Assembly (NCBI GenBank): GCA_008501735.1
Contig: QQUF01000045.1
Span: forward strand, 305,742-359,093
DNA from: Calditrichota bacterium
GTDB lineage: Bacteria; CLD3
Reading direction: 5' to 3'
Length of the DNA stretch: 53,352 bases
The notes under the pieces were generated by a model, which searched no databases, was not told the origin of the DNA, and saw only the letters and a program-made list of their open reading frames with translations. Below are positions 28,911-34,365 of the stretch, piece by piece. Position numbers and translations under genes: made by a program. Each line of letters opens with the position of its first letter. Position 1 is the stretch's first letter.

Positions 28911-28940
28911 TCTTTACCAAGAATTAAATTTTGGTAAAGA
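28911..28940 (+). promoter_or_regulatory. Inverted repeat abutting the start of the torD-like gene
   Basis: TCTTTACCAA (28911-28920) and TTGGTAAAGA (28931-28940) are exact 10-bp complements around a 10-nt AT-only-plus-one-G loop, ending 2 nt before the ATG at 28943. As RNA it would bury the ribosome-binding region (GGTAAAG); as DNA it would be an operator. Confidence 0.55.
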
Positions 28941-28942
28941 AA

Positions 28943-29566
28943 ATGAACTCGGAATACAAAATAAATTTAGCTCAAGAACTCAAAAACATCACAAGATTCT
29001 TTGTCGTGATGTTTGAATACCCGACTCAAAATTCAGTTGATTTCTTCTTAAAACAAAATGATTTCATTCGTGAACTTTGTGAACTTACAAGAACTGAACT
29101 TGTAAGTTTTAAAAATCTAAATTTGCTTGAGTTAGAAACAAATTACAACTCTCTTTTTATTGTCGAACCAAGTAAAAACGGTGCTGTACTTTACGAATCA
29201 TTTTATACTTCAGATTCAAAATTACTAAACCAAGAATCTGAAAGAAAATTGTTGGAGTTAATTCAAACTGAAAATGGTTTTGTTGCTCCAAATTGCCCTT
29301 CTGATTACTTGCCTGTAATTCTTGAATTTATCAATCATCTTTCGGATAAATTTATCACAACTAAATGTGACGAAGACTTTGATAGGATTCAATTTGTCGT
29401 TGGAAACCACATTTTAAATTGGATTGAAAAATTCACATTTGATATTCTCAAAAACTCAAATGTTTTTTATGGTTTTGTAGCGAATCTTTTTTACAACTAC
29501 TTCAAAATGCTTTCAAAAAATTTTGAAGAAATCAAAAACTATAATTTCACAGATTTTAATAATTAG
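28943..29566 (+). CDS. TorD/DmsD-like molybdoenzyme chaperone
   Basis: A 207-residue alpha-helical protein directly ahead of a Tat-exported molybdoenzyme (8 nt gap). It has the TorD-family layout: an N-terminal helical half, then Y-x-S-x-Y/F-T-S-D (here Y-E-S-F-Y-T-S-D), a P-x-D-Y-L-P-V-x-L-E-F segment and a D-x-F near the middle. Such chaperones bind the twin-arginine signal and the apoenzyme until the molybdopterin cofactor is inserted. The ATG at 28943 is preferred to an in-frame TTG at 28931, because the TTG lies inside the inverted repeat and leaves no ribosome site. The family is diverse, so the call rests on motif plus context. Confidence 0.8.
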   Translation: MNSEYKINLAQELKNITRFFVVMFEYPTQNSVDFFLKQNDFIRELCELTRTELVSFKNLNLLELETNYNSLFIVEPSKNGAVLYESFYTSDSKLLNQESERKLLELIQTENGFVAPNCPSDYLPVILEFINHLSDKFITTKCDEDFDRIQFVVGNHILNWIEKFTFDILKNSNVFYGFVANLFYNYFKMLSKNFEEIKNYNFTDFNN

Positions 29567-29574
29567 GTGAGAAA

Positions 29575-31761
29575 ATGCCTTACAACAAAATAACAAGACG
29601 AAAATTTTTAAAAAGCAGTGCAATCGCTTCATCGCTTTTTTTAGCTTTTGCCGGTGCAGGAATTCCTGTTCTTTTTTCAGACGAACCAAAAGAGCAATTG
29701 AGCAATTTTTCTGCAAACAATTACATTTACACTTCCTGTGGAATCTGTGTGAATAAATGCGGTGTTAAAGCTCACGTTGAAGGCGGACATATTATTCGCC
29801 TCGAACCAAATCCGCATTTTCCAAAAAGTCGTGGAATGGTTTGTGCTCGTGGAAATGCAGGTGCAAGACTTCCCTACTCTGCTGACAGACTAAAATTCCC
29901 CTTGATTCGTGTCGGTGAACGTGGTGAAAATAAATGGAGAAAAGCATCTTGGGAAGAAGCACTTCAAATGGTTGGTGAAAACCTCAACAAAGTAGTTGAA
30001 AAATATGAAAATCGTTCTGCTGTTATGTTTGTTTCAACAGAAGGATTTCAAGAAGAATTCTTCAAAACCTTTGCAGAAGCATTTGGTTCTTACAATCTTT
30101 TAAGACACCCAACTCTTTGTCTCTCTTCAAACATTCAGGGATTTTCAGCAGTTTTCGGAAATTACCCAGATGCCGATGTAAAAAATGCAAAATACATAAT
30201 TTTCACAGGAAGCAATCGATTAGAGGCTTTGATTACTCCAGACTCAATTGATTTGATGAAAACAGGTCCGAAAAAACTTGTTGTGATTGACCCAAGATTC
30301 ACCAAAACAGCTGCAAAAGCAAACGAATGGCTTCCAATAAAAGTTGGAACGGATTTAGCATTTGCTTTGGCGATGATTCACGTTTTGATAAACGAAAATC
30401 TTTACAATAAACAATTCGTTGAAGAAAATACTTTTGGTTTTGAAGAACTAAAAATTCACATTCAAAAATACACTCCAGAATGGGCAGAAATAGAAACAGA
30501 AATTTCAGCCGATAAAATCAGGCAAATCACTAGAGAGTTCGCAGAGAATGCTCCAAAATCGGTTTATTATCCCGGAAGACGTTCTTCATTTAGCAAAAAT
30601 GATGCGGAACTCAGAAGAGCAATGGCAATGGTAAATGCTTTAGTTGGAGCTTACAACGTTGAAGGTGGTTTGGTTCAAACTCAAAAAATAAAACTTAACA
30701 AAATCGAATTTGAACCTGTTTGGTACGACAATAATGCAGATGACAGACTCGAAGCTGGAAAAGTTAAATTTTTAGCGGAATCTTCAGGAGCTTGGATTCC
30801 TTTTAGAAACGCAGTTTTGGAAGAAAAACCTTATCCTGTTAAAGCAATGATGGTTTACAAACAAAACCCTGTCGAGTCAGTTCCAAATCGTAAAAAAACC
30901 ATTCAAATGATGAAATCGATGGATTTCGTTTGTGTAATTGATATTGAAATGTCAGACACTGCTTACTACGCAGATGTAATATTACCAGAATCAACTTACT
31001 TGGAACGTTGGGATCCAGCACACTCTTTAAGCGGAATTGAACCTTTGGTCACTTTTCGTCAACCTGTAATTCAACCACTTCACGACACTAAATCTTGCTT
31101 TGAAATTATGCAAGGTCTCACCAAAACTTGTAATTTAGAGACTAACCCTTTTGACTACACAATACAAGAATACATTCAAAAACAAGTTGAAGATTACGAA
31201 GGTGCGTACGAGTCTTTGTTGAATAAAGGAGTTTATATTCCCAAAAACATTCCTAGCCCTTACGGAAATCGAGGATTTAAAACTCAAACAAAAAAAATTG
31301 AATTTTACTCAGATAAGTACAAAAGAAAAGGATTGAACCCAATGCCTGTTTACGAAACTGTAACCGAAATTCCTGAGGGGAAATTCAAGTTCACAGTAGG
31401 AAGACACGCATTTTTCACACACAGTTCAACTCAAAATATGGACTATCTGAACACAATTATGAAAGAAAATGTTTTGTGGCTAAACACAGAAAAAGCTAAG
31501 AATCTTGGAATTAAAAACAATGACTTGGTTAAAGTAAAATCTTCTGTTGGTGAAGGAATTCTCAAAGCTTTTGTAACACAAGGAATAAGAACTGACACAG
31601 TATTTTTTGTTCACGGATTTGGCTCGAAATCAAAAGGATTGACCAAAACTCACGGAATTGGAGCTTCCGAAGCAGAAATTCTCGAAGACCATTGGGAACC
31701 AATTTCCGGTAATGCTTTGATGCACGAAACATTAGTTGAAGTAACGAAAGTGAGGTCTTAA
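29575..31761 (+). CDS. psrA: Polysulfide/thiosulfate reductase-type molybdopterin oxidoreductase, catalytic subunit
   Basis: A 728-residue member of the DMSO-reductase superfamily. The twin-arginine signal has R8-R9-K-F-L. A [4Fe-4S] site is formed by C55, C58, C62 and C90. The stretch T-L-C182-L-S-S supplies a cysteine ligand to molybdenum, as in the PsrA/PhsA/TtrA-type group rather than serine (DMSO reductase). The C-terminal domain contains the molybdopterin dinucleotide-binding motifs (G-R-H-A-F-F-T-H-S-S-T-Q-N). With the following FeS and NrfD subunits it forms a membrane-bound periplasmic-side reductase fed by quinol. Thiosulfate, polysulfide, tetrathionate or arsenate cannot be separated from sequence alone; the symbol is a family-level call. 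Confidence 0.88.
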   Translation: MPYNKITRRKFLKSSAIASSLFLAFAGAGIPVLFSDEPKEQLSNFSANNYIYTSCGICVNKCGVKAHVEGGHIIRLEPNPHFPKSRGMVCARGNAGARLPYSADRLKFPLIRVGERGENKWRKASWEEALQMVGENLNKVVEKYENRSAVMFVSTEGFQEEFFKTFAEAFGSYNLLRHPTLCLSSNIQGFSAVFGNYPDADVKNAKYIIFTGSNRLEALITPDSIDLMKTGPKKLVVIDPRFTKTAAKANEWLPIKVGTDLAFALAMIHVLINENLYNKQFVEENTFGFEELKIHIQKYTPEWAEIETEISADKIRQITREFAENAPKSVYYPGRRSSFSKNDAELRRAMAMVNALVGAYNVEGGLVQTQKIKLNKIEFEPVWYDNNADDRLEAGKVKFLAESSGAWIPFRNAVLEEKPYPVKAMMVYKQNPVESVPNRKKTIQMMKSMDFVCVIDIEMSDTAYYADVILPESTYLERWDPAHSLSGIEPLVTFRQPVIQPLHDTKSCFEIMQGLTKTCNLETNPFDYTIQEYIQKQVEDYEGAYESLLNKGVYIPKNIPSPYGNRGFKTQTKKIEFYSDKYKRKGLNPMPVYETVTEIPEGKFKFTVGRHAFFTHSSTQNMDYLNTIMKENVLWLNTEKAKNLGIKNNDLVKVKSSVGEGILKAFVTQGIRTDTVFFVHGFGSKSKGLTKTHGIGASEAEILEDHWEPISGNALMHETLVEVTKVRS

Positions 31762-31763
31762 AA

Positions 31764-32318
31764 ATGAACGGTAAAAAAAGATATGCAATGGTGATTGACA
31801 CTCACAAATGTTTCGATTGTAAAGCTTGTACAATTGCTTGCAAAATGGAAAACGGAGTCGCAGACTCTGACCAAGAATACAGAAATTGGGTCGATACAGG
31901 CGAAATAATAGGAGTATTTCCGAATGTCTCACAAAAATTTACTCCCGGACAATGCAACCACTGTACAAATGCTCCTTGTGTAAAAGTTTGCCCAACAACA
32001 GCAACTTACCGAGACGAAAACGGTTTTGTCAGAGTTGATTATGAAAAATGTATTGTTTGTAAATATTGTATGATTGCTTGCCCTTACGATGCAAGATTTG
32101 TTTCAAGTACAACTCACACAGTTGATAAATGTACATTTTGTGCTCACAGAGTTGGTCGTGGCGAACTTCCTGCTTGTGTTGAAACTTGTCCTTCAAAAAC
32201 TAGAACTTTTGGAGATTTGAATGACCCAAAATCAGAAGTTTCCAAGTTACTCCGTGAAAATGAGTACAAAGTTCTTAAACCTGAAACAGGTGCTGAACCT
32301 AACATTTTTTACATTTAA
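31764..32318 (+). CDS. psrB: Four-cluster [4Fe-4S] ferredoxin subunit (PsrB/NrfC type)
   Basis: The 184 residues contain four cysteine groups. C-F-D-C-K-A-C-T-I-A-C opens the protein, then C-N-H-C-T-N-A-P-C-V-K-V-C-P, C-I-V-C-K-Y-C-M-I-A-C-P, and C-T-F-C-A-H-R with a final C-V-E-T-C-P. This is the standard pattern of the electron-transfer subunit of complex iron-sulfur molybdoenzymes, with sixteen ligands for four cubanes. No signal peptide is visible, so it is exported with the Tat-signal-bearing partner, as in relatives. The gene starts 2 nt after the catalytic subunit stop and 18 nt before the anchor gene. Confidence 0.93.
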   Translation: MNGKKRYAMVIDTHKCFDCKACTIACKMENGVADSDQEYRNWVDTGEIIGVFPNVSQKFTPGQCNHCTNAPCVKVCPTTATYRDENGFVRVDYEKCIVCKYCMIACPYDARFVSSTTHTVDKCTFCAHRVGRGELPACVETCPSKTRTFGDLNDPKSEVSKLLRENEYKVLKPETGAEPNIFYI

Positions 32319-32336
32319 AAAATTGAGGCAACTAAA

Positions 32337-33449
32337 ATGTTCACCAAAAAAAATATGCTCTACATTTCTTTCTTCTTCGCTTTTATTGGAATTTTGGCTG
32401 TAATTGATACTCTTTACTTTGGAAGAGAAGAAAGTTTTAATCTAACACGTCAAATTCCTTGGGGAATGCACATTGCAGGTTATGTTTTCTTTGTTGCAAT
32501 TTCAACAGGGCTTTGTCTCATTGCATCAATTGGGCACGTTTTTCATCTAAAAGAATTTGAACAAATGAGCAAGCACTTGATTCTACTTTCAATAATTACT
32601 CTTTTTGCTGCATTCTTCGTAATTGGAATCGAATTAGAATATCCAACAAGATTAATAATTTATGCAATCATTTCACCAAATCTTCAATCACCAATGTGGT
32701 GGATGGGAACTTTATACTCTCTTTACACTGTGCTTTTAGTTGCAGAATTTTACTTTTTACAACAAAAGAAATTTAAACTCGCCGGAATTTTGGGACTAAT
32801 TGGAGTAGCCGCAGACATTATTGCACACGCAAATCTTGGAGCACTTTTTTCTGTTGCAAGACCGTTTTGGTCAGGAGCATTTTTGCCACCTTACTTTATA
32901 GTTTTGGCAATTCAGTCAGGTGCAGCTGTTATGGTAATTTTCCTTACTTTGATTCAAACTCATAACAAACTTCAACTAACAAGTTCAATTCGTGCAGGAA
33001 GAAGATTATTGGCAATTGCAATAGGTGTTATGTTTTTATTTCAAGCCTCTAGAATGATGAGTTCAGCAATTATGTCAGCTCCTGATGTTTACAACGGAGC
33101 AATGACAATGCTTGCAGGTCCATTGAAATGGCATTTTTGGATTGGTGAGGTCTTTTTAGGAATGCTTTTACCTTTGGGACTTTTGAGTAAATCTTCCGAT
33201 GAAAACAACTTAGCAGTTTATGCTTCTTGTTCAGCAATTTTCGGTATGTTTTTTATGCGTTTTAATCACGTTATTGCGGGACAAATGGTTCCTGTTAGAG
33301 ATTACTACAAATTGGAATTAGTTGATAATTTTCTGCAATACACTCCTTCATTTTCTGAAATTGCAACAATAGTTGGAGGACTCGGTTTTACTTTTATTGC
33401 TTATTATTATGCGGAAAAATATTTCAAAATGGAAAGAGAAATTTCCTAA
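32337..33449 (+). CDS. psrC: NrfD/PsrC-type quinol-oxidising membrane anchor
   Basis: A 370-residue polytopic membrane protein with about nine hydrophobic segments. The first cytoplasmic loop carries the NrfD-family motif T-R-Q-I-P-W-G-M-H-I-A-G-Y, and further family features are W-W-M-G-T-L-Y-S and a conserved H-F-W-I-G-E. It should hold the quinol site and pass electrons to the FeS subunit. It is the last gene of the torD-like/psrABC operon; a possible terminator follows at 33512. Confidence 0.92.
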   Translation: MFTKKNMLYISFFFAFIGILAVIDTLYFGREESFNLTRQIPWGMHIAGYVFFVAISTGLCLIASIGHVFHLKEFEQMSKHLILLSIITLFAAFFVIGIELEYPTRLIIYAIISPNLQSPMWWMGTLYSLYTVLLVAEFYFLQQKKFKLAGILGLIGVAADIIAHANLGALFSVARPFWSGAFLPPYFIVLAIQSGAAVMVIFLTLIQTHNKLQLTSSIRAGRRLLAIAIGVMFLFQASRMMSSAIMSAPDVYNGAMTMLAGPLKWHFWIGEVFLGMLLPLGLLSKSSDENNLAVYASCSAIFGMFFMRFNHVIAGQMVPVRDYYKLELVDNFLQYTPSFSEIATIVGGLGFTFIAYYYAEKYFKMEREIS

Positions 33450-33591: not shown

Positions 33592-34365
33592 ATGGAAATT
33601 GTTGAAAATTTTTTGGAATGGCAAAATAGCTACAAAGAATGGTTAAAATATTACGAATTAAATGGAAAATTAGACTGGAATAATTACAAAAGACCTAAAA
33701 ATAAAACTGCACCAAACACAAAAGGAATAAAACTTTCAGATAGTAAAATAATGCTAATTTCTTCTGCAGGAGCATTCTTGAAAAGAGACCAAAAAGCATT
33801 TGATGCAAGTAATTTATTCGGAGACTACACAATTCGTACTTTCCCAATTGAAACTCCTTTTGAAGAATTAAGTTATGCTCACGAACATTACGACCATAAA
33901 GTTGTTGAAGAAGACCCACAGTCATTGCTTCCATTAAGAAATCTTGAAAAGCTTGTAAAAGAAAATATTATCCATAGCTTGGCAAAATCTGTTATTAGTT
34001 TTAGTGGTTACTTACCAGACGTTAAAAGGTTAGTCGAAGTTTTAATTCCTGCAATTTTAAACGAAGTAAAATCTCAGAATCCTGACGCGGTTCTTTTGGT
34101 GCCTTCTTGACAACTTTGTTCTCAGTCAGTTGGACTGATTGCCAGAGCTTTAGAAATTGAAGGCATTCCTTCAACACTCACAACTTGGAATGCAGCTGTT
34201 ACAAGACTTGCTTTGCCTCCAAGGGCAACAATTACACAACTTACTAGAGGTGCAACTCTTGGACACCCAAATGACTTTGAGCAACAAATGCGAATCCTAA
34301 AAACTACATTAAAATTATTAGAAAAAAATTCACCACAAAAATTGGTTCGCTTAAAAGAGGTTTAA
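33592..34365 (+). CDS. GrdB-like selenoprotein (in-frame UGA read as selenocysteine 173)
   Basis: Conventional reading stops at TGA 34108-34110 after 172 codons. The same frame then stays open for 84 codons to TAA at 34363-34365, and those codons are clearly protein: Q-L-C-S-Q-S-V-G-L-I-A-R-A-L-E, then G-I-P-S, R-L-A-L-P-P-R-A and G-H-P-N-D. This matches the glycine/sarcosine/betaine reductase selenoprotein B-like family, whose cysteine relatives have C-x-x-C-x-Q-[ST]-V-G-L at this place. Here the motif is U173-x-x-C176. The N-terminal half also fits (D-Y-T-I-R, S-Y-A-H-E-H-Y-D-H, F-S-G-Y-L-P-D). A SECIS-like stem-loop follows at the canonical distance. Total 257 residues, one third shorter or less than clostridial GrdB and without grdA/grdE nearby, so the reaction is unknown; a thiol or selenol redox role is inferred. 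No signal peptide. Confidence 0.9.
34108..34147 (+). promoter_or_regulatory. Bacterial SECIS element at the selenocysteine codon
   Basis: The UGA (34108-34110) is followed after exactly 11 nt by TCAGTC (34122-34127), a five-base loop AGTTG and GACTGA (34133-34138), a perfect 6-bp stem of 17 nt in total. A guanine is the second loop base, as required in known bSECIS hairpins. A lower helix CTTTG (34114-34118) with CAGAG (34143-34147) extends it. This spacing and size match the minimal SelB-binding hairpin described for E. coli fdhF. Confidence 0.85.

Follow-up and report, generated by a model that had tools for sequence, protein, structure and literature searches.

A candidate gene in a genome fragment of a Calditrichota bacterium (the window, 53,352 nucleotides of contig QQUF01000045.1) is interrupted by an in-frame TGA. 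Does this triplet end a damaged gene, or is it read as selenocysteine (Sec), and what kind of protein would then be made? A preliminary interpretation made from the nucleotide sequence alone (below, the sequence-only reading) favored a GrdB-like selenoenzyme. The features of the locus are collected in Table 1.

Table 1. Features of the locus (window coordinates)
Feature	Positions	Strand	Remarks
Upstream cluster	28931..33449	+	TorD-like chaperone, PhsA-like molybdopterin oxidoreductase, 4Fe-4S protein, NrfD
PrdB-like selenoprotein gene (predicted)	33592..34365	+	257 codons through UGA; ATG start at 33592; TAA stop at 34363-34365
Codons H97-E-H-Y-D-H102	33880..33897	+	H97 nearly invariant within the family
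In-frame UGA, predicted selenocysteine 173	34108..34110	+	TGA in 29/29 clade members
Cys176 codon TGT, predicted resolving cysteine of UxxC	34117..34119	+	
SECIS-like hairpin	34122..34138	+	stem 34122-34127 with 34133-34138, loop AGUUG 34128-34132

The reading frame and the UGA site

Between the ATG and the TAA the TGA is the sole interruption, and it is followed by 84 further sense codons. The frame is thus exactly as described by the sequence-only reading, and the read-through product of 257 residues, with the local context LLVPS-U173-QLC176-SQSVGLIAR, contains the proposed U173-x-x-C176 motif. The N-terminus, MEIVENFLEW, matches the start of the orthologue L025 in the alignment. The plain list of open reading frames does give a protein of 172 residues, as had been expected of ordinary gene calling; a gene finder stopping at the UGA would drop the catalytic residue and the final third of the protein. 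The sequence beyond the TGA is real coding sequence, judging by its higher identity to relatives: 58-63% to six of them downstream of the TGA, compared to 35-52% upstream.

The relatives were drawn from the small phylum of the source, from named genome contigs, from Chloroflexota (the phylum of the Brevefilum match) and from two Chloroflexota classes. U was entered as C for the alignment; the motif is gap-free and can be recognised by eye. In the clade of the window gene the site is occupied by UGA in all 29 members (the window copy and 28 orthologues) and by Cys in none. The orthologues are 43-56% identical, and all come from Chloroflexota or from groups reached from Chloroflexota. In samples of the two classes, the clade was found in 6/158 and 21/396 genomes (matches stronger than E 1e-60). 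In one copy, from Anaerolineae SM2_1_5 (L026, positions 2198-2967), the frame changes just before the UGA; the coverage of this contig is 2.6-fold, an assembly error probably explains the shift, and only the UGA region of the copy was used.

Distant homologues have UGA or Cys at the site. In a wider set of 80 sequences, 57 have U at the aligned position, 15 have C and seven have G; one frameshifted copy is undetermined. The annotated PrdB genes of Peptoclostridium acidaminophilum and Ligilactobacillus salivarius contain an in-frame UGA in TAG-U-GTCHR at the equivalent position, and the window UGA aligns with U151 of annotated PrdB. Whether U173 lines up with a conserved Cys was the first check suggested for this gene; in the alignment it stands opposite Cys in homologues and opposite UGA in annotated PrdB. 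The gene has an in-frame UGA where homologues have Sec or Cys, and its host carries selA, selB, selC and selD.

These four genes were identified in the source genome, which is 4.14 Mb long and 100% complete. The tRNA-Sec gene selC scores above the Rfam gathering threshold and is called SeC with the anticodon tca by ARAGORN; selA, selB and selD match at 492, 371 and 367 bits, respectively. The sequence-only reading had named the absence of selB or selC as an observation that would speak against it; since both are present, this objection falls. The source lineage joins the selenocysteine users. The selD gene (L059, G000:C46:187289-188221) is itself a predicted selenoprotein gene. It has one in-frame TGA, in KCAG-U-ASKL, at a conserved site that we take to be the one where SelD of other bacteria has Sec. 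A gene for a YgeY-family-like hydrolase, described as selenium metabolism-linked (L001, positions 305-1596 on G000:C16; 257 bits with a cut-off of 321), adjoins selC on the upstream side.

Genome-wide reading of UGA as tryptophan or glycine, which would also open the frame, is practically out of the question: five other window ORFs of at least 150 amino acids end normally at TGA and meet another stop within 20 codons (0/5 are open further), so the code is not reassigned; the sel genes are all there; and where homologues retain the UxxC/CxxC pair, the site is aligned with Cys.

A SECIS-like hairpin downstream of the UGA

A candidate hairpin is found 17 nt 3' of the UGA. If the U of UGA is numbered 1, bases 15-20 are paired with bases 26-31. 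The model of the bacterial SECIS element (bSECIS) has a loop of 3-9 nt with a G within its first two positions, a stem of 4-16 bp, a distance of 16-37 nt from the UGA and a minimum free energy of at most -7.5 kcal/mol (PMC13188914). The window hairpin, with its loop AGUUG, 6-bp stem and 17-nt spacing, agrees with these constraints, and its energy is -9.6 kcal/mol in the register described here and -12.5 kcal/mol for the best fold. Most relatives have GUG and a closing C-G pair in the loop region.

Taken alone, the window hairpin is unexceptional compared to dinucleotide shuffles (z -1.34) and in its number of pairs (p 0.135); its folding energy is better than that of synonymous shuffles with p about 0.02. 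Since it is only mildly unusual by itself, the strength of the case lies in the comparison among relatives. Counts of covariation are inflated by relatedness, which the controls remove only in part; with this reservation, 26 diverse UGA genes have 89% of cells paired and 22 double changes, compared to 5.9 in shuffles, none of 500 being as high. The clade alignment is 95.8% paired, and its covariation is likewise matched by 0/500 shuffles. Shifting of the pairing partner abolishes the signal in both alignments.

The pairs are retained beyond what the choice of codons would give. Relative to synonymous-codon shuffles, the UGA genes keep 5.80 of seven pairs where 4.05 are expected, whereas the 15 Cys genes keep 3.93 where 4.22 are expected, and none of the 15 has a complete hairpin. 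Energy z-scores alone do not separate the UGA members from the Cys members (p 0.29), whereas the pair count relative to synonymous codons does. In three clade members a CAG codon for Gln has become CAA jointly with the change of a CTG codon for Leu to TTG; both changes are silent and the pair is kept (Fisher p 0.001). The Gly codon at the site is GGA in 25 of the 29 clade members, while GGA constitutes 17% of the Gly codons in the same genes, and the Ser codon is TCC in 27/29. On these comparisons, the hairpin is under selection at silent sites and is absent from the Cys homologues.

The sequence-only reading had considered the UGA a probable selenocysteine codon. The position at a Sec/Cys site, the full machinery in the genome and the covarying SECIS-like hairpin argue for the same conclusion, and UGA 34108 is almost certainly decoded as selenocysteine. 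A pseudogene or a sequencing error, with a decaying 172-residue fragment left by a nonsense mutation or by a wrongly called Cys codon, would account for the short ORF in the plain list. It would also account for the patchy presence of the gene, which follows from the fact that a genome of the same family as the source (G001) has no homologue; the same pattern fits transfer of the gene from Chloroflexota, which we infer. However, an error or decay is hardly credible given the identical UGA at the family Sec/Cys site in 28 orthologues, the stronger conservation after the UGA than before it, and a hairpin selected at silent sites.

Family placement and the search for partners

The best NCBIfam match of the read-through protein is PrdB (TIGR04483), at 115.2 bits. 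This is below the equivalog cut-off of 300 bits, which PrdB of P. acidaminophilum passes at 310 bits, and the protein is thus PrdB-like but outside the PrdB equivalog. The GrdB-type NCBIfam models score 28-37 bits, over roughly their C-terminal half only; the GrdB model TIGR01917 gives 35.9 bits, far below its cut-off of 602, at profile positions 210-370 only. The Pfam family PF07355 (GRDB) is matched at 31.2 bits, above its gathering cut-off of 22. The label "GrdB-like" of the sequence-only reading is better replaced by "PrdB-like".

In the tree, the window gene groups with the Chloroflexota orthologue L029 and with L025 (support 100/100), and its clade stands apart both from annotated PrdB and from Cys-less homologues found in the source's class. 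By alignment and tree, the gene is a member of a distinct clade with invariant UGA. The window protein resembles PrdB in length and in having Sec at the same UxxC position, and it is about 30-34% identical to plasmid-borne PrdB. It differs in its separate clade, in having HEHYDH where PrdB has HGGYDN, and in the absence of a PF09338 protein from the source genome. GrdB, GrdF and GrdH, the protein B subunits of glycine, sarcosine and betaine reductases, match it at about residues 200-410 of models of 431-435 residues, including the Sec site. However, the N-terminal half of these proteins is lacking in the window protein, and the genome has neither GrdA nor a GrdE-type partner. The Cys-less homologues (L018-L024) belong to the same family at 25-29% identity and have no in-frame stop. 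They have Gly, or Gly and Ser, at the positions equivalent to UxxC (GPLGHQ, GPLSHQ) and hence no redox pair; these genes from other families of the source's class are possibly a non-redox paralogue group. A separate UGA branch with the motif U-PDCCSNVPV, very long at 1.91 in the same tree, was observed in Chloroflexota (L089, L095, L099, L114-L117, L121).

It had been claimed that no grdA or grdE partner lies beside the gene. This holds, and the partners are missing from the whole genome as well. GrdA has no match genome-wide, although it is matched in the positive control genome G280. The family PF09338, which we take to cover PrdA and which was searched with this one model, also has no match in the source genome; it is matched in the control genomes G280, where both families are present, and G179. 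The latter, from Chloroflexota, is unusually rich in protein B complexes: PF09338 matches 18 times across many contigs, and several GrdB-like genes with UGA are present; GrdA gave no match there.

The PhsA/Psr-like cluster upstream ends 142 bases 5' of the gene and is not common to the relatives. No general conserved neighbor was found at the 29 clade loci and 23 loci of the wider family, and synteny at these loci is confined to small subgroups. The neighbors recurring near clade members are an SDR gene or an MBL-fold gene, at three to four loci each.

The gene could still encode one subunit of a genuine D-proline or glycine reductase with its partners elsewhere in the genome, as the best curated match is to PrdB and annotated PrdB has the UxxC site in common with it. 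However, the score is well below the PrdB cut-off, the protein forms a separate clade, and neither PF09338 nor GrdA is found, while genomes with the glycine reductase set do match. We consider such a subunit very unlikely. With no GrdA and no GrdE-type component, the protein is not expected to act as a glycine or D-proline reductase. Taken as a whole, the locus is best explained by a stand-alone PrdB-like selenoprotein, and we hold this reading with high confidence.

Possible function and relation to known selenoproteins

AlphaFold2 modeling of the read-through protein with a 32-member alignment yielded a single compact protein, with a pTM of 0.94 and a pLDDT of 96.6 across the full 257 residues. 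Sec173 is placed at the start of a helix (174-189) that follows a strand (166-170). The PDB, searched by sequence and by fold, contained no meaningful match; the best fold match had E 0.066.

In GrdB and PrdB, Sec acts in reductive cleavage. A complex of the GrdB type was proposed for C-F cleavage of fluoroacetate. In the window protein, SelB bound to the hairpin would deliver Sec-tRNA(Sec) to the UGA, giving a single-domain protein of 257 residues. The selenolate of Sec173 could then serve as the nucleophile that either cleaves a small substrate reductively or reduces a disulfide-type bond. Sec173 and C176 would form a Sec-Cys selenenylsulfide, with Cys176 as the resolving residue, and a thioredoxin-like donor would reduce it again. 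A thiol-recycled selenolate reductase of this kind is a reasonably likely function, whereas any substrate named for it would be a doubtful guess.

Alternatively, the Sec protein may handle disulfides, selenium or metals, as a redox buffer, selenium carrier or mercury trap, and reduce no small substrate. UxxC is a general thiol-redox motif, and the lack of a partner and of a conserved neighborhood agrees with such a role. On the other hand, the protein keeps the invariant residues G60, D78, R82, D108, R211 and Q232 and the nearly invariant H97 of a family in which the proteins studied so far, GrdB and PrdB, act as reductive enzymes (PMC13188914). A handling role is thus rather unlikely. As a tentative suggestion, the clade may constitute a new family of single-subunit, Sec-invariant selenoreductases on the GrdB/PrdB fold. 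Such enzymes would act with neither a pyruvoyl nor a protein A partner, and the bond that they cleave would not be the C-N bond of glycine or proline.

Genes of this kind are already known, as UxxC selenoproteins named PrdB have been catalogued outside clostridia since 2005. Zhang and Gladyshev counted "proline reductase PrdB", with UxxC, among the commonest marine selenoproteins, with 42 in the Sargasso Sea and, in the GOS metagenome, 235 Sec and 110 Cys sequences (PMC1088965, PMC2398784). In a 2006 survey, Anaeromyxobacter and Geobacter are listed as having proline reductase selenoproteins. The marine proteins share UxxC, pfam07355, the alternation of Sec and Cys and an origin outside clostridia with the window clade, a likeness drawn from the published descriptions (PMC1088965, PMC2398784). 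The sequence-only reading underestimated what was known of PrdB-type UxxC selenoproteins away from the clostridial operon (PMC1088965, PMC2398784). A 2026 review treats PrdB as D-proline reductase only. Among open-licence PMC papers, we found none that describes the window clade or the function of a partner-free PrdB-like protein. As neither a structure of the fold nor a study of a partner-free member was found, a single purified protein could make the family accessible to study. The always-UGA branch of PrdB/GrdB proteins without reductase partners occurs in Chloroflexota and in one small unrelated phylum.
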